Program-made: the position numbers and the translations under genes
The notes under the pieces: generated by a model
What the model was told of the DNA's origin: nothing
The model's input: the letters and a program-made list of their open reading frames with translations, nothing else
The model's database searches: none
Source of the DNA: a virus
Strand: one strand, 5' to 3'
Virus record (IMG/VR): IMGVR_UViG_3300025585_000057
Coordinates: 1 to 51,459 of that record
Length of the DNA stretch: 51,459 nt
Part shown: positions 18,760-37,486 of the stretch, piece after piece
How the letters are laid out: every line of letters begins with the position of its first letter
Position numbering within the stretch: the first letter of the stretch is position 1

Positions 18760-18793
18760 ATACTTGACATACGAAATATAAGTCAAGTATACT
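18760..18793 (+). promoter_or_regulatory. Sigma70 promoter wrapped in a perfect inverted-repeat operator
   Basis: TTGACA (18764-18769), an 18-base spacer, and TATACT (18788-18793) form a strong promoter. ATACTTGAC (18760-18768) and GTCAAGTAT (18782-18790) are perfect 9-base inverted repeats that overlap the -35 and the -10. A dimeric repressor bound here would shut the promoter. Confidence 0.75.
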
Positions 18794-20979: not shown

Positions 20980-21035
20980 GAGCCGAGTGAGCCGAGGATT
21001 CATGCGGGTCTTCGGGCGTTTGGCTCACTCGGCTC
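20980..21035. repeat. 14-base perfect inverted repeat
   Basis: GAGCCGAGTGAGCC (20980-20993) and GGCTCACTCGGCTC (21022-21035) flank a 28-base GC-rich loop. The GAAAGAGCCG motif next to the left arm is found again at 21052. No T run follows, so a protein-binding cruciform is more likely than a terminator. Confidence 0.65.
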
Positions 21036-21151: not shown

Positions 21152-21337
21152 TTTACGTTTCAGGTGAGGTAGGTTTACGTTTAATGTGGGATATTTGAGC
21201 TTCAAGTGGGGGTCGCTTTACGTTTAATGTGGGGTATTTGAGCTTCAAGTGGGAGATGGGTACGTTTCAGGTGGGGTATTTACGCTTCAAGTGGGGCGGC
21301 CTTACGTTTAATGTGGGGTATTTGAGCTTCAGGTGGG
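21152..21337 (+). repeat. Nine iterons with two-helical-turn spacing
   Basis: Nine direct copies of TTTACGYTTMARGTGGG (variants with GAGC in place of ACGY) start near 21152, 21174, 21194, 21217, 21237, 21259, 21279, 21300 and 21321. Distances are 20 to 23 bases, mean about 21, so every copy faces the same side of the helix. All are in the same direction. An AT-rich stretch follows at about 21410-21495. This is the plan of an iteron-type replication origin; a late-promoter regulator array is the alternative. Confidence 0.7.
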
Positions 21338-21364
21338 AGGAACTGACTTTTCTGTCCGCTGGTA

Positions 21365-21510: not shown

Positions 21511-22314
21511 ATGGAACAGACACCGTGCGAGGAGTTGGGGTACAAGGTTGGTGACAAGTTTGAGGTGCTTACTGATAATCATGAGGTTTTTAAAGCGGGG
21601 GAGGTGGTGGAGTTGCATGTTGATGATGGATCGAATGTGCCATACTTCGTAAACGATACCAGCAGCGCAGGTATACAAGCTGTATTCTTAACCGATGTAC
21701 GGAAGATAGAACCTACCCCCGAGAAACAAACACCATGCGAGAGATTGGGGTACAAGGTTGGTGACAAGTTTGAGGTGCTTGGGTCGCTTGGGTCGCCGCT
21801 TATAAACGAAAGAACGGTATTTACGTTACGTGTTGATGATGGATCGGATTGTCCTCATTTTGAGGTAGGGCACCCCTGTATGGGCGTGCAGTGCATACAT
21901 TTAGATGACGTGCGGAAGATAGAACCGGCGGGATTCGCAGCCATACCCCCATCGGAATACTACGACGTGTATTTCCGTTGGAACGTGGATTCCGGGGTGT
22001 TGGTAGCGAAGCATGTAACGAAAGGCGATATCGGCAAGTACCCTAACGTGGATAGGACAGAACCCTCAACACCACGGCCCCCACAACGGAAGCACAGCCA
22101 CTATTTCAAGGATGTCCGGCACCTGGAAGAGATAGACGTGTACCGGGTATTGGAGTTATTTGAGGTGCGTGATAGTCGTGTGGCACATGCTGTAAAGAAG
22201 CTGCTGGTGTCAGGGGCCCGGGGAACGAAAGATCAGGAGCAGGACATCCAAGAGGCGCTGGACACGTTATTACGGCGTAAGGAGATGTTAGAGGAGGATG
22301 GGAGTCGGGGTTGA
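21511..22314 (+). CDS. Protein with duplicated module and DUF3310-like C-terminus
   Basis: 267 residues. Two copies of a roughly 70-residue module (1-67 and 72-140) begin CE-x-LGYKVGDKFEVL and end DVRKIEP, with a V-DDGS centre; small SH3-like barrels are likely. The two copies share a 36-base exact DNA repeat (21535-21570 and 21745-21780), so the duplication is recent or maintained by recombination. The last 65 residues (HYFKDVRHLEEIDVYRVLELF, AVKKLL, DIQEALDTLLRR) resemble DUF3310-type phage domains. TAGGAG lies nine bases before the start. First gene after the iterons. Function unknown. Confidence 0.7.
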   Translation: MEQTPCEELGYKVGDKFEVLTDNHEVFKAGEVVELHVDDGSNVPYFVNDTSSAGIQAVFLTDVRKIEPTPEKQTPCERLGYKVGDKFEVLGSLGSPLINERTVFTLRVDDGSDCPHFEVGHPCMGVQCIHLDDVRKIEPAGFAAIPPSEYYDVYFRWNVDSGVLVAKHVTKGDIGKYPNVDRTEPSTPRPPQRKHSHYFKDVRHLEEIDVYRVLELFEVRDSRVAHAVKKLLVSGARGTKDQEQDIQEALDTLLRRKEMLEEDGSRG

Positions 22315-22322
22315 AAACACCA

Positions 22323-22351
22323 TTGACCTCATAACGTTACTGTAGTAGTCT
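22323..22351 (+). promoter_or_regulatory. Possible promoter just before the small terminase gene
   Basis: TTGACC (22323-22328), 17 bases, then TAGTCT (22346-22351). The -10 match is weak. If used, transcription would begin only a few bases before the ATG, giving a nearly leaderless message, in line with the absence of a ribosome site. Confidence 0.35.
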
Positions 22352-22381
22352 CTAGCGCATTATGGCTATAGACTACTACAG
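22340..22381 (+). promoter_or_regulatory. Hairpin enclosing the small terminase start codon
   Basis: CTGTAGTAGTCT (22340-22351) and AGACTACTACAG (22370-22381) are perfect 12-base inverted repeats. After one mismatch TAGC pairs with GCTA, leaving the 8-base loop GCATTATG, which contains the ATG of the small terminase (22362). No ribosome site is present upstream. Either a translational control hairpin or the DNA site recognised by the terminase (pac or cos-like). Confidence 0.65.
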
Positions 22382-22952
22382 AGACGACACCGACTTCGGC
22401 GACCTCTTCGGAGATATGCCGAATGAACTATCGCCCCTAGAAGCGAAGTGGTTCGCGATATTCAAAGAGACTCGAGGAGATCGGGTAGCAGCGGACAACG
22501 CCACGGGCAACCCGTTCCGGCATACCTCACCCTCATTAATGCTTCAGCACGAGCTGAGAGCCTATCGTAATTTCAGCAAATGCGATCCACTGTCACGGGA
22601 ACAACGCATCACCAACGAGACCGCCGACGTAGCATTCGCGGATGTAAGGGATCTTCTGGACCCCGATACGGGAGCTCCTAGACCTATTCAGGATTTACCC
22701 AGGCACGTAGCAGCAGCCATTTCTGCAGTCGACGTAACCACGGACGACACCGGCAGAGTCACTATAAAATACAAGATGCATAATAAGCTGGTAGCGTTGG
22801 ACGCGCTCGCTAAGCAGAATAATATGTACAAAGAAAACAACAAGATAGAAGCGGATATCAAGACGGAGGATGTCGGGGATAAGGATATCGCTCGACGGCT
22901 CGCGTTCGTGTTACGACGCGGGATAGAGAGCAAACAGAACTCGGAAGAGTGA
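22362..22952 (+). CDS. terS: Terminase small subunit
   Basis: 196 residues. The N-terminal part is helical with an acidic start (DTDFGDLFGDMPNELSPLEAKWFAIFKET) and the segment RVAADNATGNPFRHTS reads like the HTH region of phage small terminases. The C-terminal half holds the family signature: a beta-hairpin VTTDDTGRVTIKYK followed by helix HNKLVALDALAKQNNMYKEN. Fits the Terminase_2-type small subunit that recognises packaging DNA. The large subunit lies 7 kb downstream. The start codon sits in a hairpin loop. Confidence 0.75.
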   Translation: MAIDYYRDDTDFGDLFGDMPNELSPLEAKWFAIFKETRGDRVAADNATGNPFRHTSPSLMLQHELRAYRNFSKCDPLSREQRITNETADVAFADVRDLLDPDTGAPRPIQDLPRHVAAAISAVDVTTDDTGRVTIKYKMHNKLVALDALAKQNNMYKENNKIEADIKTEDVGDKDIARRLAFVLRRGIESKQNSEE

Positions 22953-22996: not shown

Positions 22997-23821
22997 ATGT
23001 CACGCATTCTAAAATCAATCATGGGCCGCAAGCTTGGCCTAGACCACGGAAACGTATTACTGTCGCAAAAGGGGTTTGTATCCGGCGACAACGGCAAACA
23101 AATCGCGCTACCGAGCCCGACTCGTGTAGCGCTATTCGACGATTTCATCGGCGATAGGGTATCAACTAGCGTATGGCAGTTCGTTGAGGGAACCGACTCG
23201 GCTACCTCCTCTGCGGCCATATTAACCGGCGGCATCGGCGGCGTATTACGACTCACAACCGGCGACGCTGGTACAGGTCTGGCTGCCGACACGGAACAAA
23301 TGACCGCGAATCAGTTGATGTGGCAGGCCAGCAATGGCGGGCTATCATTACAGGCGAGATTGAAACTGAGTCAGATTACTGAATGTTACGTGTTCGTCGG
23401 GTTCACCGACACCGTAGCCGCGTCTCTTGAAGCGCCTATCATGTCAGCCGGGTCAGCAGATACGTTCACAACCAACGCGAGCGATGCGGTAGGATTCATG
23501 TTTGACACCCGTATGACAACCGACAACATCTGGTTGACAGGGGTCAAGGCGGATGTTGATGCGACTCACCAGAACTCAGGCGTAGCACCAGTAGCGGCGC
23601 AGTACCTGACGTTACGAGTAGACGTAGATAGCAGCGGCAACGCCACTTTCTACATCAACGGCGTACAACGCGGTACGACTCTGGCCAACGCTATCACAGC
23701 AGCCACGGATCTCACCCCAGTCGTAACGGTATCCAAAACAGCAACCGCGTCTAGCATGACTCTGGACCTGGACTACCTCCATATCACGATGGATCGTGCT
23801 GCGGACGGCGGAGCGGTGTAA
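22997..23821 (+). CDS. Jelly-roll/lectin-like structural protein
   Basis: 274 residues. A short N-terminal helix (1-30) is followed by a beta-sandwich with concanavalin/laminin-G-like strand pattern: LFDDFIGDRVSTSVWQF, GGVLRLTTGD, LSLQARLKLSQITECYVFVGFTD, YLTLRVDVDSSGNATFYINGVQRGT and a final LDLDYLHITMD. That DGNATFYINGV turn is typical of the carbohydrate- or capsid-binding lectin folds found on phage heads and fibres. TAGGAG precedes the start. Likely exposed on the virion. Confidence 0.75.
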   Translation: MSRILKSIMGRKLGLDHGNVLLSQKGFVSGDNGKQIALPSPTRVALFDDFIGDRVSTSVWQFVEGTDSATSSAAILTGGIGGVLRLTTGDAGTGLAADTEQMTANQLMWQASNGGLSLQARLKLSQITECYVFVGFTDTVAASLEAPIMSAGSADTFTTNASDAVGFMFDTRMTTDNIWLTGVKADVDATHQNSGVAPVAAQYLTLRVDVDSSGNATFYINGVQRGTTLANAITAATDLTPVVTVSKTATASSMTLDLDYLHITMDRAADGGAV

Positions 23822-25176: not shown

Positions 25177-26520
25177 ATGTACATACTCGCGAGTACGTCA
25201 GACGTCATTCGCGTTACCACCGATGCAGCCGCAGCGGTGGATTGTCACGCCACCTGGGTGGACAACAACGCGGGTACTATCACACCGGGGCGGACCAATA
25301 CCGCCTCGATTACTACAGCCACGACCACACCGGTCGTGAGTTCGCCAGCAGCCTCGACTTACCGAGGAATCAAGAAGTTAGCCATATTCAACACACACGG
25401 GAGCGTACGAACGTCCATCGACGTTGGGCATTACGACGGAACCACGGAAGAGACGATCTACTCGACGATTCTGGGACCTGGGGAATTCGTAATATACACC
25501 GAAGGGGTTGGCTGGCAACGTTTCAACGCCAATGGTGAATTGATGAAGGCCGGTGTCGCTCAGGCTGCGTGCGACAAACAGGCATTCGCGGCGGACGGAA
25601 CCTGGACTAAACCCACTGGGTTCACCCCGAAATTTGTTATCGTCGATCTATGGGGCGCGGGCGGGGGAGGTGGAGCCGGAGCTTCACTTGCTACTGCAGT
25701 CGCGGCTCACGGAGGCGGCGGAGGTGGGGGCGGGGCGTTCGTGCGCCAAGTATTTATGGCCTCGGATCTCACCAGTACGGTAGCTGTCACGATCGGGGTA
25801 GCGGGGACTGCGGGGACACCAGGAGCAGCAGGTGCGCTTGGCGGGGATGGCGGCGTCGGAGGTACAACCACTTTCGGAAGCTATTTATCTGCATACGGCG
25901 GCGGCGGCGGTAGAGGCGGTGCGATAACCGCAGCGATATCAGGAGGCGGCGGAGGCGGCGGCGGTGAAGGCGCTGGCGGTACAGGAACGACAGTCGGGGG
26001 GACCGGAGGCGTGCCTACTGCAACAACAGTAGCGATAGGGTTTCAGGGAGTTACAGGCAGCGCAGCGGCGAACCCGAATGGGGCCGACTGGGGCGGGGCC
26101 CCTGGCGGGAGCGCCTCTAGCGCGGCAACCCCGGTGGCGTTTCCTGGGGGTACTTCCATGCGCGGCGGCGGCGGCGGAGGTCAAGGGGGTTGCCATACCA
26201 GTACCCCAGCGGTAACAACCGGGTCGGATGGCGGGGCTTCTGGAACGTATTCAGCAACCGGCGGTGGCGGGGGCGCAGTTGGTACGAGTGGCCCGTCACC
26301 GACGGTGGGCACTGCGGGGTCTGATGGATCTTCTCTACGCGGCGGACACGGAGGAGGAGGTGGTGGCTCTACGGTAACAGCCGCGACTGCTGGTAAGGCT
26401 GGCGGAAACGGGGGGCGTGGAGGTGGAGGCGGAGGTGGCGGAGGTATTGGGCAAAACCCAGGATTGGGGGGCGCTGGCGGGGCTGGCGGAGCGGGATACG
26501 CGATAATTTACAGTTACTAA
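25177..26520 (+). CDS. Glycine-rich fibre protein, first of three paralogues
   Basis: 447 residues. The N-terminal 130 residues (ILASTSDVIRV, DCHATWVDN, TITPGRTNTASITT, ..GWQRFNANG) form a conserved attachment domain shared with the two following genes. Next comes a KP-T-x-F-x-P-K-x-VIVDLWGAGGGGG segment and a long Gly-rich region (about 160-440) of GGGGG-type clusters ending YAIIYSY. The Gly-rich part fits polyglycine-II-like sandwich folds of fibre-tip adhesins. Ribosome site GAGGT. Probable receptor-binding fibre. Confidence 0.8.
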   Translation: MYILASTSDVIRVTTDAAAAVDCHATWVDNNAGTITPGRTNTASITTATTTPVVSSPAASTYRGIKKLAIFNTHGSVRTSIDVGHYDGTTEETIYSTILGPGEFVIYTEGVGWQRFNANGELMKAGVAQAACDKQAFAADGTWTKPTGFTPKFVIVDLWGAGGGGGAGASLATAVAAHGGGGGGGGAFVRQVFMASDLTSTVAVTIGVAGTAGTPGAAGALGGDGGVGGTTTFGSYLSAYGGGGGRGGAITAAISGGGGGGGGEGAGGTGTTVGGTGGVPTATTVAIGFQGVTGSAAANPNGADWGGAPGGSASSAATPVAFPGGTSMRGGGGGGQGGCHTSTPAVTTGSDGGASGTYSATGGGGGAVGTSGPSPTVGTAGSDGSSLRGGHGGGGGGSTVTAATAGKAGGNGGRGGGGGGGGGIGQNPGLGGAGGAGGAGYAIIYSY

Positions 26521-26521
26521 A

Positions 26522-27874
26522 ATGATAATACTTGCAAGCACTTCCGATGTAATACGAGTCATAACCGGTACAACCGGATCGGCTATCGATTGCCACGCCT
26601 CGTGGGTGGACAACTCATCGAGCACGATTACGCCGGGTAGGACCAACACGGCCTCGATAACGACCAACACGACAACCACGGTATGCGGATCGCCTGGGGC
26701 GTCGGCGTATCGGGTACTGAAGAACCTCACGATCTGTAACACTCATGCCTCGGTAGCCACCTCGATTGAGGTTGAACACTTCGATGGAACAACGGCGGAG
26801 ACTCTATACAAAACAACATTGCTGCCAGGGGAGTTCGTCGTTTATGACGACGACGCTGGCTGGCAGAGGTTCAACAGCGAAGGCTCGGAAGCTGGTGTAG
26901 GTCGCGCAGGAATAAATGTGGATGTCCAGGAATTCAGCGCGAATGGAACCTGGGTAAAGCCCACGACCTTTAAACCGAAGCAGGTAATAGTCGACATGTG
27001 GGGCGGTGGCGGTGGTGGGGGTAGTGGCGGTTTTGCTGCCTCCGCCGCCACGGTGCACAAAGGCGGGGGAGGTGGAGGGGGAGGTTGCTTTCGTCGGTAC
27101 ATAATAGATCCTTCTGTACTACCCGATACCGTGGCGGTTGTGGTAGGACTCGGGGGACAAGGAGGTATTGAGACCACGACCACCGCGCCACAAGCGGGAA
27201 CCGCCGGAGCGGTTGGGGGCACTACCTCTTTCAATGGGAACTATCTAGCCTACGGCGGCGGCGGCGGCGCTGGAGGAGTAAACACCGCCGCCAACTCGGG
27301 CGGCGGCGGCGGTGCGGGGTGGAACGGCGCGGGGGGCACTGGGGGGGCCACGGGGGGCTCTGGGGGGGTTCCTGCTGTTACAACTAACGCGACAAACGGA
27401 AACGGAGTAGCGTCAAGTGTAGCTACGGTGCCAATACCGGCCTATGAAGGTGGCGCGGGCGGCGGGGGTTCCTCAAACACACCCGCGGTATTCGCCGGTG
27501 GTACGTCTATGAGAGGCGGCGGCGGCGGAGGGGCCGGGGGGTGTACCGATGCAGTACCCGCGGTTGTTGCACCATCGGCGGGCGGCGCTTCAGGAACGTA
27601 CAGTCTATCCGGGGGAGGGGGAGGAGCAGCAGGAACCAGCGGCGCTTCTCCGACAGATGGCACAGCAGGATCGGCAGGAACTTCACTACGCGGCGGCCAT
27701 GGTGGGGGAGGTGGCGGGTCTACGGTTACTGCGGCTACTAATGCGGGTAAGGGGGGCAACGGAGGTGCGCGAGGAGGCGGCGGCGGCGGCGGGGGGACGA
27801 CCACTGCAGTTACAACCGACGGCGGAGCGGGGGGTAAAGGGGGAGATGGTTATGTTATTGTTTATACATACTAA
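26522..27874 (+). CDS. Glycine-rich fibre protein, second paralogue
   Basis: 450 residues with the same plan as the first: attachment domain (1-130), KPTTFKPKQVIVDMWGGGGGGG boundary, Gly-rich body, end YVIVYTY. No ribosome site precedes it, so coupling to the upstream gene is likely (its start is one base after the stop). Its first 90 bases are almost identical to the third paralogue. The Gly-rich loops differ strongly from its neighbours, as expected if they determine receptor choice. Confidence 0.8.
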   Translation: MIILASTSDVIRVITGTTGSAIDCHASWVDNSSSTITPGRTNTASITTNTTTTVCGSPGASAYRVLKNLTICNTHASVATSIEVEHFDGTTAETLYKTTLLPGEFVVYDDDAGWQRFNSEGSEAGVGRAGINVDVQEFSANGTWVKPTTFKPKQVIVDMWGGGGGGGSGGFAASAATVHKGGGGGGGGCFRRYIIDPSVLPDTVAVVVGLGGQGGIETTTTAPQAGTAGAVGGTTSFNGNYLAYGGGGGAGGVNTAANSGGGGGAGWNGAGGTGGATGGSGGVPAVTTNATNGNGVASSVATVPIPAYEGGAGGGGSSNTPAVFAGGTSMRGGGGGGAGGCTDAVPAVVAPSAGGASGTYSLSGGGGGAAGTSGASPTDGTAGSAGTSLRGGHGGGGGGSTVTAATNAGKGGNGGARGGGGGGGGTTTAVTTDGGAGGKGGDGYVIVYTY

Positions 27875-27877
27875 AAT

Positions 27878-29239
27878 ATGATAATACTTGCAAGCACATC
27901 AGACGTAATACGAGTCATAACCGGTACAACCGGATCGGCTATCGATTGTCATGCTTCGTGGATAGACAACGCCTCGGGCGTAATGACTCCCGGACGAACG
28001 AATACCGCCTCGATAACAACCAACACGACTACGACTATTGTAGCCGCGCCAGCCGCATCGACCTATAGATCGATACGGCACATAACAATATTCAACACAC
28101 ACGCATCCGTAGCAACCTCGGTGGAGGTCGAACACTACGACGGCACAACGGCGGAATCCTTATACAAAATTACGTTAGCAGCCGGGGAATCGGTGCAGTT
28201 CATCGATGACCGCGGTTGGTTCGAGTACAACGCCAGTGGAGTACAGCAGCCTATAGACGACATTACTGCGATAGGTTCTGCGGTTGATAGACAAGAATTC
28301 TCGGGTACAGGAACCTGGACCAAACCAACGCACATGAAAGCAACGATGGTGGTTGTTGAGCTATGGGGTGGAGGAGGTGGAGGCGGCGGAGGAGGAGTGA
28401 ACAACGCGGTGGCTACGAAAGGCGGCGGCGGTGGGGGAGGTGGCGCTTATATGCAGCAGATCTTCGCAGCTAGTGATCTAACAGATACAGTTACCGTGAC
28501 GATAGGCAATGGCGGAACGGCTGGCACGAGCGTAGCAGGTAGCGGGGGAGCCGCAGCCGGGGGTAATGGGGGCACGGGCGGTACGACTACTTTCGGGAGT
28601 TATCTATCAGCATTCGGCGGCGGGGGTGGAGTGGGCGGGGCTAGTTCTGGCGTGGCGAGTGGAGGAGGGGGAGGCGCGGGTCTAGGTGCCGCTGGAAGCG
28701 TTGGCACAACTGTGGGCGGCGCGGCTGGATGGCCAACAGGGGTAGGGTTATTAGGCTCAGGGGAGCCGGGGCAAGCCACGGTGGTCTCGAATACTACAGA
28801 ATTCGGGGGGTGTGGTGGCGGGGGCTCCAGTGCCATCCCTGGAACGGGGGGTGCGGGGGGTGCCTCTCGGTACGGCGGAGCTGGCGGCGGGTCGGGCGGG
28901 GCGCATACCGCTACGCCTGCCGCCGTCGCGGCAGGACCCGGCGGGGCTTCTGGTTTCAGTGCAGGTAATGCTGGGGGAACAGCGGGGTTTATAGGTGGTA
29001 AAGGCGGCGGGGCGGGCGGACCTGGGGCCAGTTTGCTCACTACCGGAGGCGGGGGGTCCGGCGGCGGCGGTGGTGGTGCTAATGCCCTGGCGGTTACAGT
29101 GGATGCAGGAGCCGGAGGTGCTGGAGGTTTAGGCGGCGGGGGAGGTGGCGGAGGTGGGGCCAGCCTAGCCACGACAGGAACCAGCAGCGGAGCGGGTGGT
29201 CTGGGTGGGGGTGGGTATGCGATAATACATACCTACTAA
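27878..29239 (+). CDS. Glycine-rich fibre protein, third paralogue
   Basis: 453 residues: attachment domain with REWD-free variant loops (FIDDRGWFEYNASG), KPTHMKATMVVVELWGGGGGG boundary, Gly-rich body and end YAIIHTY. Shares a 44-base exact stretch with the second copy (26549-26592 and 27905-27948). No ribosome site. Together the three genes encode alternative or co-assembled fibre tips. Confidence 0.8.
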   Translation: MIILASTSDVIRVITGTTGSAIDCHASWIDNASGVMTPGRTNTASITTNTTTTIVAAPAASTYRSIRHITIFNTHASVATSVEVEHYDGTTAESLYKITLAAGESVQFIDDRGWFEYNASGVQQPIDDITAIGSAVDRQEFSGTGTWTKPTHMKATMVVVELWGGGGGGGGGGVNNAVATKGGGGGGGGAYMQQIFAASDLTDTVTVTIGNGGTAGTSVAGSGGAAAGGNGGTGGTTTFGSYLSAFGGGGGVGGASSGVASGGGGGAGLGAAGSVGTTVGGAAGWPTGVGLLGSGEPGQATVVSNTTEFGGCGGGGSSAIPGTGGAGGASRYGGAGGGSGGAHTATPAAVAAGPGGASGFSAGNAGGTAGFIGGKGGGAGGPGASLLTTGGGGSGGGGGGANALAVTVDAGAGGAGGLGGGGGGGGGASLATTGTSSGAGGLGGGGYAIIHTY

Positions 29240-29248
29240 GAGGCGGCT

Positions 29249-30037
29249 ATGGCTATCGTAAAAGGGCTTTGGGACAAGACAGCGGTAAATAAGGGGTGGT
29301 TCGATCCACAACTTATAACCGTTGGTTGGTTTGATAAGCGCCTCATCGATGACCTGAATCCGCCAGTAGTCAAGGATCTGACAGCGGCCACGTTCACCTT
29401 TACTTCTGCCACACTGCAGAACCGATTGACTCTGAACCCGACAACAGGCGCGCTTACTTTTAGCCCTAAAACGACGCAGAATACCCAGACAAATAGGCCG
29501 ACAGCGGCTACATTCAACTTCAGCGGGCAGGCGTATAACAGCTTCCTTGCGATGTCTACCACAGCAGCGGTATTCAGCTTTACCAGCAATGCTATAGCGA
29601 GTGCCAACTCACACGGGCTATCTACGCCATCCTTTGGGTTCGATGGCACAGACGTTAGCCTCGCGATGAACAACACGCCAACCGCAGCGACATTCAACTT
29701 TACTGCAGGTGCTTTAACACAAACCCTCGATGCTACGCTTACGACACCGACAGCGACCTTCACAGCGAATACGATACAGAATCGGAATACCGTCACACCT
29801 ACCCCTCCAGAGTTTTTATTTGTGCCGCAGGATGTCACCTATGTCGCGAATGTTGTTTTAGAACTAACCGTGGCCACGCTTGCACTAACACCGGCAACTA
29901 CCCAGAATACGAATACGATAGAACTATCAGCAGCAACATTCCTGATTCAATCAGCGGGAGACCTGGAGCTGGTTATAGGCGGGGGCGTTCTGCCAGATCC
30001 GTTGAAAATACGACCACTAATTGGAGTTGGTTTATAG
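29249..30037 (+). CDS. Repeat-built beta protein of the fibre cassette
   Basis: 262 residues, AGAGG site. Opens with a short repeat pair (KGLWDKTAVNKGWFDPQL and VGWFDKRLIDD). From about 45 to 240 eight or nine degenerate repeats of about 24-28 residues follow, each with TAATFxF and TQNTxT or LxMxTT segments (for example TAATFTFTSATLQNRL, AATFNFSGQAYNSF). An extended beta-solenoid or stacked beta-sandwich is likely. Probably a fibre shaft or virion decoration. Ends two bases before the large terminase start. Confidence 0.7.
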   Translation: MAIVKGLWDKTAVNKGWFDPQLITVGWFDKRLIDDLNPPVVKDLTAATFTFTSATLQNRLTLNPTTGALTFSPKTTQNTQTNRPTAATFNFSGQAYNSFLAMSTTAAVFSFTSNAIASANSHGLSTPSFGFDGTDVSLAMNNTPTAATFNFTAGALTQTLDATLTTPTATFTANTIQNRNTVTPTPPEFLFVPQDVTYVANVVLELTVATLALTPATTQNTNTIELSAATFLIQSAGDLELVIGGGVLPDPLKIRPLIGVGL

Positions 30038-30038
30038 A

Positions 30039-33000
30039 ATGTTTAGAGCAGATGATTTACTACAGATACTGAATGAGTTGTCACCGAGCGACAGGAAGGA
30101 GGCTATCGCGCTTGCTTCAGCAGTCACGGAGCATTTGCCGTGGGTACCGAACCCGGGTCCTCAAACGGAAGCGTTCTTCAGCCAAGCGGACGAGGTATTC
30201 TATGGCGGGGCTGCAGGTGGTGGAAAGCTTCAATCAATTCAATCACTTACACTAACCCCAACTGGTTGGCGCAAGATTGGCGACCTCAAAGTTGGGGATA
30301 AATTGTGCGCGACAGATGGCACCGTACAAGAAGTTATAGGGGTATTTCCGCAGGGTACGGTAAGTATATACCGGGTGACAATGCGAGACGGAGGTGCGAC
30401 TGAGGCGGGGTTGGACCACAACTGGCTGGCCTGGAGAACGCACGCGAACACCAAGAAGGGCAATAGGGTGACTTGCGGCGCTGAGTCAGCACGTAAGTGG
30501 ACAACCCGGCAGATGATAGCCGAGATGGAAAAGGGAACCCGCGATGATGGCAGGAGGAGAGGATTCGCGATACCAGTAACGGAACCTGTCAACTTCACTG
30601 TGGCGGGGCAGTTGAAAGGCCGAGGGGTGTTCGTTGGTCGAGAGATTGACCCTTATATATTGGGTTTGCTGCTTGGGGACGGGCATATTACAGAAAAAGG
30701 CATTGGACTAACATCTATGGACGCGGAGATCGCCTCCGCTTTTATGGCCTGGGCCGGTGAGGACTGTCGGGTTAAGGTAGAGCAAAATAAGCGTTCGGAT
30801 ACCTATGCGTTACGCGGACCTATGTTGAAGAAGCTTAAGGACCAGCTATCCGACCTGGACCTCCTCGGCTGTAAATCGCACGATAAGTTTATACCGAGGC
30901 AATACCTATTCGCACCGATAGAAGAGAGATGGGCTTTATTGCAAGGGCTTATGGATACTGATGGGTGGGTGGAGCCTAGAAGGGCCTGTTATTACACAAC
31001 GGTGTCGGAGGTGTTAGCCTCTGACGTTGAGCACTTGGCCCGCTCACTTGGGGCGGTTACGACTCGAACCGAGAAGAACCCGAACTATACTTATAAAGGT
31101 GAGAAGTTAACGGGGCAGAAAGCATATTGTATTCGTATCAAGCTGCCGAACCCCGAATGCGCTTTTAGACTCCCCCGCAAGATAGCGGTAGCGGCGAGCA
31201 TAGAACATCAAAGCGAAGGAAGGGTTATCGAGAGCATAACGTATGTACGGGAAGATGAGGCGGTATGTATCGCCGTATCAAACGCCAATTCTCTGTACAT
31301 AACCGACGATTTCATCGTAACACACAACACGGACCTACTACTCGGATTAGCGCTCACAGGGCATACCAAGTCGCTCGTGTTGCGAAGAACGAATCGAGAG
31401 GTTAACGGCCTAGTGGAGAGGATGACTGAAATCCTGGGAGCAAGAGAGGGCTACAACAGCCAATCAGGAATCTGGCGGTATTCGGACAAACTAATCGAAC
31501 TCGGGGGTTGTCAGTTAGAAGAAGATAAACAAAAGTATAAGGGCAACGCGAAGGATCTGTACTGTGTCGGGCCGGATACCGAAGTGCTCATGGCAGATGG
31601 ATGTTATCGGAGAATGGTAGAGATAGTACCAGGGGATCTTGTTGCCACCTTGGAGGGACCGAAACGGGTCAACAGAGTCTACACTATACCAAACAAAGAC
31701 ACGGTAGAACTTTCGGTACAGCACCCCGATGGTAGGAATATTAGACAGCTACAGTCCTCCGCTCACTATCTCTTTACAGGAAGTGGTTGGGAGGTGCCGA
31801 CGAACACCACCGAACGACTGGCGCTACTGTCTGCCGGGACGCGCACAGGTACAGAGTACCCCCACCCGTATACGGGTGGGTTACGAAAGGTACAGACGGG
31901 CCTTATATACACTACCGCCCCGACAGTAACTCCAATCGGGGTACGAACGCTATATGACATGGAAGTGGAAGAAGTCAATCACTTCATAACAAAGGGCGGA
32001 ATAGTTAATAAGAACTGTTTTGATGAGTTGTCAGATTTCACCGAATCACAGTACGTGTTTATTACCGGGTGGAACCGATCGACGAAACCCGGGCAACGTT
32101 GCCGGATCATCGGAGCGGGGAACCCACCGACGAGGCCCGAGGGGCAATGGGTTGTGAGGCGTTGGGCTGCCTGGCTGGACCCACGGCACCCGAGGCCCGC
32201 GAAACCCGGGGAGTTGCGTTGGTACACGACGAACAATAAAGGCGAAGAGGAAGAGGTCGACGGACCAGGGCCGCATTACCTGGACGGCGATAGGCCGCTG
32301 TACGCGAGATCCAGGACGTTCATCCCGGCAGCGCTGGCAGATAATCCGGATCTGGTAGGCACCGGTTACCAAGCGAGTCTGGATTCTTTACCGGCGGAGC
32401 TTAGGGCCGCGTACCGCGACGGCAACTTTCATACCGGTATCCAGGACGACCCGTATCAACTGATCCCGTCCGCGTGGGTTATAGCAGCTCAAGAGCGGTG
32501 GAGGCCGAATCCTCCAGTAGGTATCCCGATGTGCGCAATCGGTTGTGATGTAGCGGTGGCAAAAGACAAATTCGTAATAGCTCAAAGACACGATTCCTGG
32601 TTCGCTCCTCTGATAGTGATACCGGGAAAAGAAGTCGCGGACCCGAAGCAGGCAGCGGGCCGCGTACTCGCCCTACGGAGGGATAACGCGAAGGTTATCG
32701 TCGACGTCGGCGGCGGCTGGGGGGCAGATTGCTACGGGCAGCTTACGTCGAACCAGATTGACGCGCTCGCTTACATGGGGGTGAAAGCATCTAAGCGTAA
32801 AACATTAGACGGAAAATTCGGTTTCTCGAATGTGAGAACTGAGGCGCTATGGAAATTAAGAGAGGCGCTAGACCCCTCACAACCCGGGGGTTCGACGATG
32901 CAGCTTCCTCAAAGTGTTACGCTTCGGGCGGACTTATGTGCACCTTACTATGCTGTTAAGAAACAAGGTGATACAATAATGCTAGTTGCTGAGAGTAAAG

Positions 33001-33164
33001 AGGACGTGAGGGACAAACTCGGGAGATCCCCGGACGAGGGCGACGCGGTAGTGATGGCATGGTATGATGGATTCAGACTGGCTAACGTCCAAGGCGGCTG
33101 GGAGGATAACGTTTACAATAAAACGCGAACGATATCTGTGAATCGTGGAAGGCGGTATAACTGA
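30039..33164 (+). CDS. terL: Terminase large subunit containing two inteins
   Basis: 1041 residues as translated; 523 after removal of two inteins. Start ATG 30039 with GGAG upstream; a GTG at 30021 is less likely. The N-extein ends FYGGAAGGGK (54-63), the first part of Walker A; intein 1 is 64-430; extein resumes TDLLLGLAL (431); intein 2 is 509-659; extein resumes CFDELSDF (660) with Walker B FDE. The nuclease has an RNase-H-like GCDVA (about 834) and SPDEGDAVVMA (about 996). Joined exteins give GGAAGGGKTDLLLG and DLYCFDELSDF, both normal for TerL. It packages DNA into the capsid and cuts it. Confidence 0.95.
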   Translation: MFRADDLLQILNELSPSDRKEAIALASAVTEHLPWVPNPGPQTEAFFSQADEVFYGGAAGGGKLQSIQSLTLTPTGWRKIGDLKVGDKLCATDGTVQEVIGVFPQGTVSIYRVTMRDGGATEAGLDHNWLAWRTHANTKKGNRVTCGAESARKWTTRQMIAEMEKGTRDDGRRRGFAIPVTEPVNFTVAGQLKGRGVFVGREIDPYILGLLLGDGHITEKGIGLTSMDAEIASAFMAWAGEDCRVKVEQNKRSDTYALRGPMLKKLKDQLSDLDLLGCKSHDKFIPRQYLFAPIEERWALLQGLMDTDGWVEPRRACYYTTVSEVLASDVEHLARSLGAVTTRTEKNPNYTYKGEKLTGQKAYCIRIKLPNPECAFRLPRKIAVAASIEHQSEGRVIESITYVREDEAVCIAVSNANSLYITDDFIVTHNTDLLLGLALTGHTKSLVLRRTNREVNGLVERMTEILGAREGYNSQSGIWRYSDKLIELGGCQLEEDKQKYKGNAKDLYCVGPDTEVLMADGCYRRMVEIVPGDLVATLEGPKRVNRVYTIPNKDTVELSVQHPDGRNIRQLQSSAHYLFTGSGWEVPTNTTERLALLSAGTRTGTEYPHPYTGGLRKVQTGLIYTTAPTVTPIGVRTLYDMEVEEVNHFITKGGIVNKNCFDELSDFTESQYVFITGWNRSTKPGQRCRIIGAGNPPTRPEGQWVVRRWAAWLDPRHPRPAKPGELRWYTTNNKGEEEEVDGPGPHYLDGDRPLYARSRTFIPAALADNPDLVGTGYQASLDSLPAELRAAYRDGNFHTGIQDDPYQLIPSAWVIAAQERWRPNPPVGIPMCAIGCDVAVAKDKFVIAQRHDSWFAPLIVIPGKEVADPKQAAGRVLALRRDNAKVIVDVGGGWGADCYGQLTSNQIDALAYMGVKASKRKTLDGKFGFSNVRTEALWKLREALDPSQPGGSTMQLPQSVTLRADLCAPYYAVKKQGDTIMLVAESKEDVRDKLGRSPDEGDAVVMAWYDGFRLANVQGGWEDNVYNKTRTISVNRGRRYN
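30228..31328 (+). other. Intein 1 in TerL Walker A, class 3 type with LAGLIDADG endonuclease
   Basis: 367 residues inserted between K and T of GGGKT. The first residue is Leu, not Cys or Ser. Splicing block B is LDHNW with Trp at intein residue 66; block F carries Cys (EAVCIAV, intein residue 347); the last residue is Asn and the following extein residue is Thr. Trp B:12, Cys F:4 and Thr G:1 are the triad of class 3 inteins, which do not need an N-terminal nucleophile. The LAGLIDADG motifs are YILGLLLGDG (intein about 143-152) and LLQGLMDTDG (about 237-246), so the homing endonuclease may be active. Confidence 0.88.
31563..32015 (+). other. Intein 2 just before TerL Walker B, mini-intein
   Basis: 151 residues, from Cys (CVGPDTEVLMADG) to Asn (IVNKN) with Cys as first downstream residue. 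Block A, a block B-like SSAHYLFT, block F-like VRTLYDMEVEEVNHF and block G ITKGGIVNKN are visible; no endonuclease. The usual penultimate His is Lys (NKN). Standard class 1 chemistry is expected (Cys1, Asn, Cys+1). Confidence 0.85.
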
Positions 33165-36649: not shown

Positions 36650-37486
36650 ATGGCTGAATCCGCATTTCAGATTCAATACCGACAAGAGTTTATCGCCGGT
36701 TTTGAACAAACCCAATCCCTCGTAAGAGACACCGTAACTACCGAAGCCGTTATTAGCGGAAATCAGGCTGTGTTCCTGGTAGCCGATTCAGGTGACGCTT
36801 CCGCTGTTACTCGTGGCCTGAATGGTTTGATTCCAGGTCGTGCAGACAACTTGAACCAGAACACTGCGACACTTGTTGAATGGCATGACAAACCTGTCAA
36901 GACCAATTTCAACATCTTCGCCTCACAAGGCAATCAGCGCCAAATCATGCAGTACACCTCTATGGCCGTGATGAACCGTCGTATCGACGCTGACATCATC
37001 AACGAACTGAACGGTGGTAGCGTGACACAGGATACCGGTGCTACAGCACAGGCATCGCTGGATCTGGCCATGTATGCTCTGACTATCCTCGGCAACAACG
37101 CGGTGCCTCTGGATGGCAATATCAGTGCCCTGATTACCCCAGCTTTCTGGGCGTATTTGATGCAGACCAAAGAGTTCACCAACGTCGACTACGTGAACAA
37201 CAAGCCGTTTACGAACAGCTTGACAATGTTCCGCTGGGCGAACGTGAACTGGATCGTGCACCCGAACCTGCCTGGTAAAGGCACGAGCGCAGAGAAATGT
37301 TTCATGTTCCACAAATCCGCAATGGGCCATGCTATTGACCGGGCCGGTGTCCAGTCAGAAGTAGGCTACAACGGCGAGAACAACTACTCTTGGGCTCGTT
37401 GCAGCGCTTACATGGGTGCGAAACTTCTGCAGGCAGAAGGCGCGGTTATTATTAATCACGACGGTTCTGGCTACGCAGCCCAGTAA
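36650..37486 (+). CDS. Major capsid protein
   Basis: 278 residues from ATG 36650 (TAGGAG eight bases upstream; a GTG three codons earlier is less likely). Sequence AESAFQIQYRQEFIAGFEQTQSLVRDTV, LVADSGDASAVTRGLNGLIPGR, MQYTSMAVMNRRIDADIINEL and ...SYMGAKLLQAEGAVIINHD is the pattern of podovirus coat proteins of this length with an HK97-like fold. Codon use is noticeably more biased to C-ending codons than in neighbours, fitting high expression. Lies between two terminators with its own leader. Confidence 0.9.
   Translation: MAESAFQIQYRQEFIAGFEQTQSLVRDTVTTEAVISGNQAVFLVADSGDASAVTRGLNGLIPGRADNLNQNTATLVEWHDKPVKTNFNIFASQGNQRQIMQYTSMAVMNRRIDADIINELNGGSVTQDTGATAQASLDLAMYALTILGNNAVPLDGNISALITPAFWAYLMQTKEFTNVDYVNNKPFTNSLTMFRWANVNWIVHPNLPGKGTSAEKCFMFHKSAMGHAIDRAGVQSEVGYNGENNYSWARCSAYMGAKLLQAEGAVIINHDGSGYAAQ

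Follow-up and report, generated by a model that had tools for sequence, protein, structure and literature searches.

A hairpin enclosing the small terminase start codon of an uncultured podovirus-like phage, and its possible role as a temporal switch

How is a small terminase made when its start codon sits in the loop of a hairpin and no ribosome site precedes it? The question arises from IMG/VR record IMGVR_UViG_3300025585_000057, a podovirus-like phage, and the window that we analysed is this whole record of 51,459 nucleotides. Distant relatives of its portal are found both among phages that infect Proteobacteria and among proteobacterial genome bins. Judged by Pfam and PHROG profiles, the gene at 22362 is a genuine small terminase: its product scores 28.4 bits against Pfam Terminase_2, above the curated cut-off of 26.1, and matches phrog_51 (E 1.8e-5). 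In addition to carrying this domain, terS opens the packaging and head module; a conserved gene at 22997 comes next, and TerL lies further on, behind other genes.

The original prediction placed the terS ATG in an 8-nt loop closed by a 4-bp stem and perfect 12-bp inverted repeats, and we could reproduce this geometry base by base. Positions 22340-22351 (CTGTAGTAGTCT) pair perfectly with 22370-22381 (AGACTACTACAG); directly inside this stem lies a C x T mismatch (22352/22369), followed by the inner TAGC/GCTA stem (22353-22356/22365-22368) and the loop GCATTATG, which holds the ATG at 22362-22364. Outward of the 12-bp stem, one A x A mismatch is succeeded by four further pairs, one of them G-U, and over this full extent of 22335-22386 the arms are 86% complementary (Table 1). 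The hairpin is the top-scoring close inverted repeat of the whole 51-kb record, with a score of 15 against best scores of 9-13 when the full window was simulated 30 times with an order-2 Markov model. Folded as RNA it reaches z = -6.1, and 0 of 200 shuffles equal it. The lack of a ribosome site, also part of the original prediction, holds as well, with no Shine-Dalgarno sequence in 22315-22362, unlike most other genes of the phage, which have AGGAG-like sites. Nothing in the whole window matched Rfam above the gathering score, and the hairpin does not have the form of an intrinsic terminator, as no T run follows the stem on either strand and the site is absent from the terminator scan.

Table 1. 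Positions of the terS hairpin, the candidate promoter and the genes around them in the window
Feature	Position	Strand	Basis
Upstream gene (function not assigned), SD AGGAG; proposed source of read-through mRNA	21511..22314	+	ORF
Candidate -35 box TTGACC	22323..22328	+	consensus match only; TTGAC kept in L007
Hairpin 5' arm (outer stem, 12-bp perfect stem, inner 4-bp stem)	22335..22356	+	repeat search, RNA fold
Candidate -10 box TAGTCT inside hairpin 5' arm	22346..22351	+	17 bp from TTGACC; identical in L007
Hairpin loop GCATTATG	22357..22364	+	RNA fold
terS, terminase small subunit, 196 aa, ATG in loop, no Shine-Dalgarno	22362..22952	+	Pfam, PHROG, L007 orthologue
Hairpin 3' arm = terS codons 2 to 9 (DYYR core)	22365..22386	+	repeat search, RNA fold, alignment

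Relatives of the phage allow the hairpin to be followed over a considerable protein distance, with a single diverged relative that carries it. The same hairpin is present in a twin contig (L003/L084) of 99.4% identity. The diverged relative, L007, was reached through a portal-based search; its TerS is 59% identical, begins at the aligned Met and scores 28.8 bits against Terminase_2. At the same place it has a hairpin, GGTAGTAGTCTAC-gcgcATGaca-GTGGACTACTACC, that folds into a 16-bp stem, G-U pairs counted, with the ATG in a 10-nt loop. Within the inner non-coding 5' arm, five of the five bases changed in L007 still pair, whereas random bases would keep all five pairs in 0.8% of trials (a chance of about 0.008). 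From the window to L007 we counted two two-sided compensatory changes (T-A to G-C and T-A to C-G), two one-sided changes (C-G to U-G and U-A to U-G), two mismatches that became pairs and two outer-end pairs that were lost. Sliding the partner by 1-3 columns lowered the paired cells from 89% to 21-55%; a column-shuffle control, which has no power with two sequences, gave 116/500. Conservation of compensatory changes in relatives had been put forward in the original prediction as a check on the hairpin, and L007 indeed keeps the structure with two two-sided changes and two gained pairs. As a comparison of only two independent sequences, this compensation is suggestive of a selected stem-loop. 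The alignment also bears on the choice of start: an internal ATG at 22416 was considered as the true terS start and rejected, as it is not conserved in L007, whereas codons 4-17 are.

In the sequences searched, the hairpin is confined to these contigs. An exact-pattern search of IMG/VR for the dyad matched only the phage's twin and L007, and a scan for hairpins over gene starts in all fetched loci found none at terS outside the window, L003 and L007. Searching with the TerS protein returned no relative in genome contigs or phage records, and the portal relatives at 84% identity (L005, L006, L008 and L009) stop short of terS. A more distant locus, L010, encodes a TerS that scores 50.2 bits against Terminase_2 and is 31% identical over the alignment; it has neither the DYYR residues nor a hairpin. 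The L010 TerL has distant relatives that include those of Acidovorax phage AP1 and Bordetella phage BPP-1.

Folding energies indicate how strongly the hairpin would conceal the start. On read-through RNA, opening the terS start is predicted to cost 25.1 kcal/mol, the highest of 39 starts in the window (median 7.9), compared with 2.4 kcal/mol on an RNA beginning at 22358. The corresponding values for L007 are 22.6 and 2.2 kcal/mol, and relatives without the hairpin range from 10.6 to 14.6. By folding prediction, both the window and L007 thus have the stable stem that sequesters the start in T4-type switches. The setting, read from sequence only, would allow co-transcription: the upstream gene shares the strand of terS and ends 47 nt before it, with no terminator-like site between the two in the scan, and in L007 the upstream homologues overlap or adjoin one another and stop 20 nt short of terS.

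What the original prediction appears to have overlooked is a candidate sigma-70-like promoter, TTGACC-17-TAGTCT, whose -10 box would lie within the 5' arm. L007 has TTGACG-17-TAGTCT, ending 6 nt before the ATG, so that TTGAC and TAGTCT are 17 bp apart in both phages, although outside the stem core the spacer is largely diverged. Since the letters of the -10 box must also pair with the conserved D-Y-Y codons, their conservation is not independent. In the window the match is 8/12, with a weak -10, and the same score is found at 5/38 other gene starts. From the distance to the -10 box, assuming a start 6-8 nt after it, transcription is predicted to begin at about 22357-22359, in the loop; this places it 3-5 nt ahead of the window ATG and directly at the ATG of L007. 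A transcript begun in the loop would be without the 5' arm of the hairpin; with its leader of 3-5 nt, the predicted window mRNA is near-leaderless rather than leaderless.

To learn whether such a promoter is frequent at terS, we fetched 43 loci with the downstream neighbour gene and read their terS starts. Among these are TTGACA-18-TATAAG-7-ATG (L117), TTGATA-17-TATAAC-7-ATG (L107), TTGCTG-17-TATAAG-7-ATG (L108) and TTGCCT-17-TACCAT-6-ATG (L010), all four without a ribosome site or a hairpin. A promoter score of at least 8 of 12 was reached by 6/20 terS starts, 2% of shuffled upstream sequences and 0/22 neighbouring-gene starts, where the six terS starts represent about two terS lineages and are not independent. 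A promoter abutting terS is thus likely across the group, whereas for the window taken by itself it is no more than plausible. The starts at L107:1926, L108:1031 and L117:735 each combine a good promoter, which stops 7 nt short of the ATG, with the lack of a ribosome site, and they suggest leaderless terS mRNAs in this phage group. Leaderless phage mRNA is exemplified by lambda cI expressed from PRM, where transcription starts at or near the AUG; the promoter placement is alike, but the cI case involves neither a hairpin nor a terminase. Elsewhere in the window, the best sigma-70 match (TTGACA-18-TATACT, 11/12) lies at 18760-18793, and an inverted repeat, ATACTTGACATA/TAAGTCAAGTAT, covers its -35 box and spacer in an operator-like manner.

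Two kinds of transcript with contrasting opening energies, together with the proven logic of T4 e and I-TevI, lead us to favour a temporal switch in which a promoter is nested in the hairpin, a reading that we hold at about an even chance. An mRNA read through from the upstream gene would carry both arms, so that the start codon would be trapped within the loop and the lower stem and, with no Shine-Dalgarno sequence to help, terS would stay untranslated. The sigma-70-like promoter would initiate in the loop just before the ATG, and the resulting mRNA, without the 5' arm, would form no hairpin and present an accessible, near-leaderless AUG. TerS synthesis would then be confined to the period, presumably late, in which the nested promoter fires. 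What we infer here is the activity of this promoter, where it starts, its timing and the effect on translation. Of the original prediction, the translational switch survives as the favoured function, and its stem-loop is kept in L007, but the putative binding of TerS to its own message gained no support from the analysis. The candidate promoter in the 5' arm changes the likely mechanism: a switch in which the promoter-derived mRNA is made without that arm can do without TerS binding.

The closest parallels come from phage T4. Longer early transcripts of T4 gene e form an inhibitory structure that lowers lysozyme synthesis about 100-fold, and late transcripts without the 5' part of this structure are translated well (PMC3014915); I-TevI follows the same hairpin and late-promoter logic (PMC2988022). 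As in T4 e, soc, 49 and I-TevI (PMC3014915, PMC2988022), the terS hairpin is predicted to lock the start region on read-through transcripts, and a promoter at or inside the 5' strand would yield mRNA without that strand. Unlike in the T4 set, the regulated gene is terS and the phage is unrelated to T4. The T4 hairpins contain the late promoter TATAAATA and a Shine-Dalgarno sequence, neither of which is present in window positions 22315-22362, and the terS phage has instead a sigma-70-like candidate promoter, an AUG in the loop and a predicted near-leaderless mRNA. Since these two T4-specific features are absent, the element would work like the T4 set without being a member of it. Phage Aeh1 mobE and T4 segB also conceal the translation start in an RNA hairpin on long phage transcripts, but these are homing endonuclease genes with a Shine-Dalgarno sequence in the hairpin (PMC2988022). 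In the open-access literature we found no precedent for a leaderless, hairpin-controlled terminase or for a TerS that represses its own message. If the temporal switch is real, T4-style hiding of a start until a nested promoter fires would also have evolved in unrelated uncultured phages, here at terS without any ribosome site and governing DNA packaging rather than lysis or homing. In this phage group, a dedicated and nearly leaderless terS promoter would then look common, and this yields a testable rule for the onset of packaging.

Several other readings of the element deserve weight. The hairpin might by itself keep terS translation low on a polycistronic mRNA, with no functional internal promoter and with a trans-acting opener, which could be TerS, another phage protein or the ribosome finishing the upstream gene. 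The occlusion is strong and conserved, and in L007 2 nt separate the hairpin from the upstream stop (2074), where a terminating ribosome could disturb the stem. Such coupling is not conserved, however, since in the window the distance from the upstream stop is 21 nt to the outer stem and 26 nt to the 12-bp stem; an opened stem would still offer no Shine-Dalgarno sequence, making translation on the long mRNA unlikely, and TTGAC at 17 bp would be left unexplained. We consider control by the hairpin alone unlikely, and we think much the same of a double-stranded DNA operator, in which the dyad over the -10 box and start of the terS promoter would bind a dimeric phage repressor or activator and RNA pairing would be incidental. 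A site over a promoter is typical of operators, the half-sites TAGTAGTC/GACTACTA are identical in the window phage and L007, and the promoter at 18760-18793 has an overlapping dyad too. The conserved half-cores are nevertheless spaced 20 nt apart in the window and 16 nt in L007, a 4-nt difference that would rotate the halves by about 140 degrees and suits a stem-loop better than a rigid DNA-bound dimer. The conserved core is moreover the D-Y-Y coding part and its pairing partner, the divergence of the arms is compensated, with G-U pairs among the changes, and we found no second matched dyad with the hairpin sequence elsewhere in the genome. A tyrosine-recombinase site with loxP-like arms and an 8-bp spacer was set aside, as neither spacer length nor arm spacing is conserved.

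The packaging signal that the original prediction offered as the other possibility would be a pac or cos initiation element at the terS start, recognised as DNA by TerS with or without RNA binding. Several phages have pac sites at terS, and in SPP1/SF6 pac a special DNA region likewise spans promoters and the terS start (PMC4737164). Synonymous identity to L007 in terS codons 4-17 is 10/13, against about 46% in the rest of the gene, and this stretch extends past the stem; the stem appears to explain part of the excess, and the remainder could reflect an unrecognised DNA or RNA element, or chance. In SPP1, however, pac is recognisable by direct repeats that occur in sets and by a cut site that is known (PMC4737164), whereas the window has a dyad with no direct repeats of at least 9 nt inside the element, and the dyad is missing from relatives that share the gene order. 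We regard this reading as quite improbable. Very unlikely, in our estimate, is a combination of roles in which one 50-bp sequence would serve as promoter -10, read-through off-switch, TerS codons 2-9 and putative TerS target in DNA or RNA, a leaderless autoregulatory switch tying the TerS level to packaging-site occupancy. At the far end stands chance, or a recent inverted duplication without function: the hairpin occurs in only two lineages of the collection, but its score exceeds that of all 30 simulated genomes and its conservation is compensated at 59% protein identity, and we give this account very little credence.

The ends of the record are uninformative on physical or packaging ends, since both assemblies of the phage stop at one and the same position (window 51459), within a giant ORF (>2,400 aa) and far from terS. 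The first ORF of the window (position 1) resembles the C-terminal part of the giant ORF in another frame, and the phage map is probably a circle from which a short piece is missing.

Other features of the window may also be of interest. The large terminase ORF (30021-33164, 1047 aa) apparently contains two in-frame inteins, the first with a LAGLIDADG domain (PF14528, 1e-10); the TerL of L010 (528 aa) has none. Three neighbouring glycine-rich tail-fibre-like paralogues lie between terS and terL (25177-29239). Ahead of the gene at 21511, a non-coding stretch of ~600-900 b holds about four 42-bp tandem repeats (21175-21339), with a 14-bp perfect hairpin nearby (20980-21035), and the repeat region could be an origin or packaging region. 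Finally, the start at 36650 is the second most occluded of the 39 (18.3 kcal/mol) and has a promoter-like TTGATC-16-TATCAT close upstream, making it a possible second case of the same switch logic.
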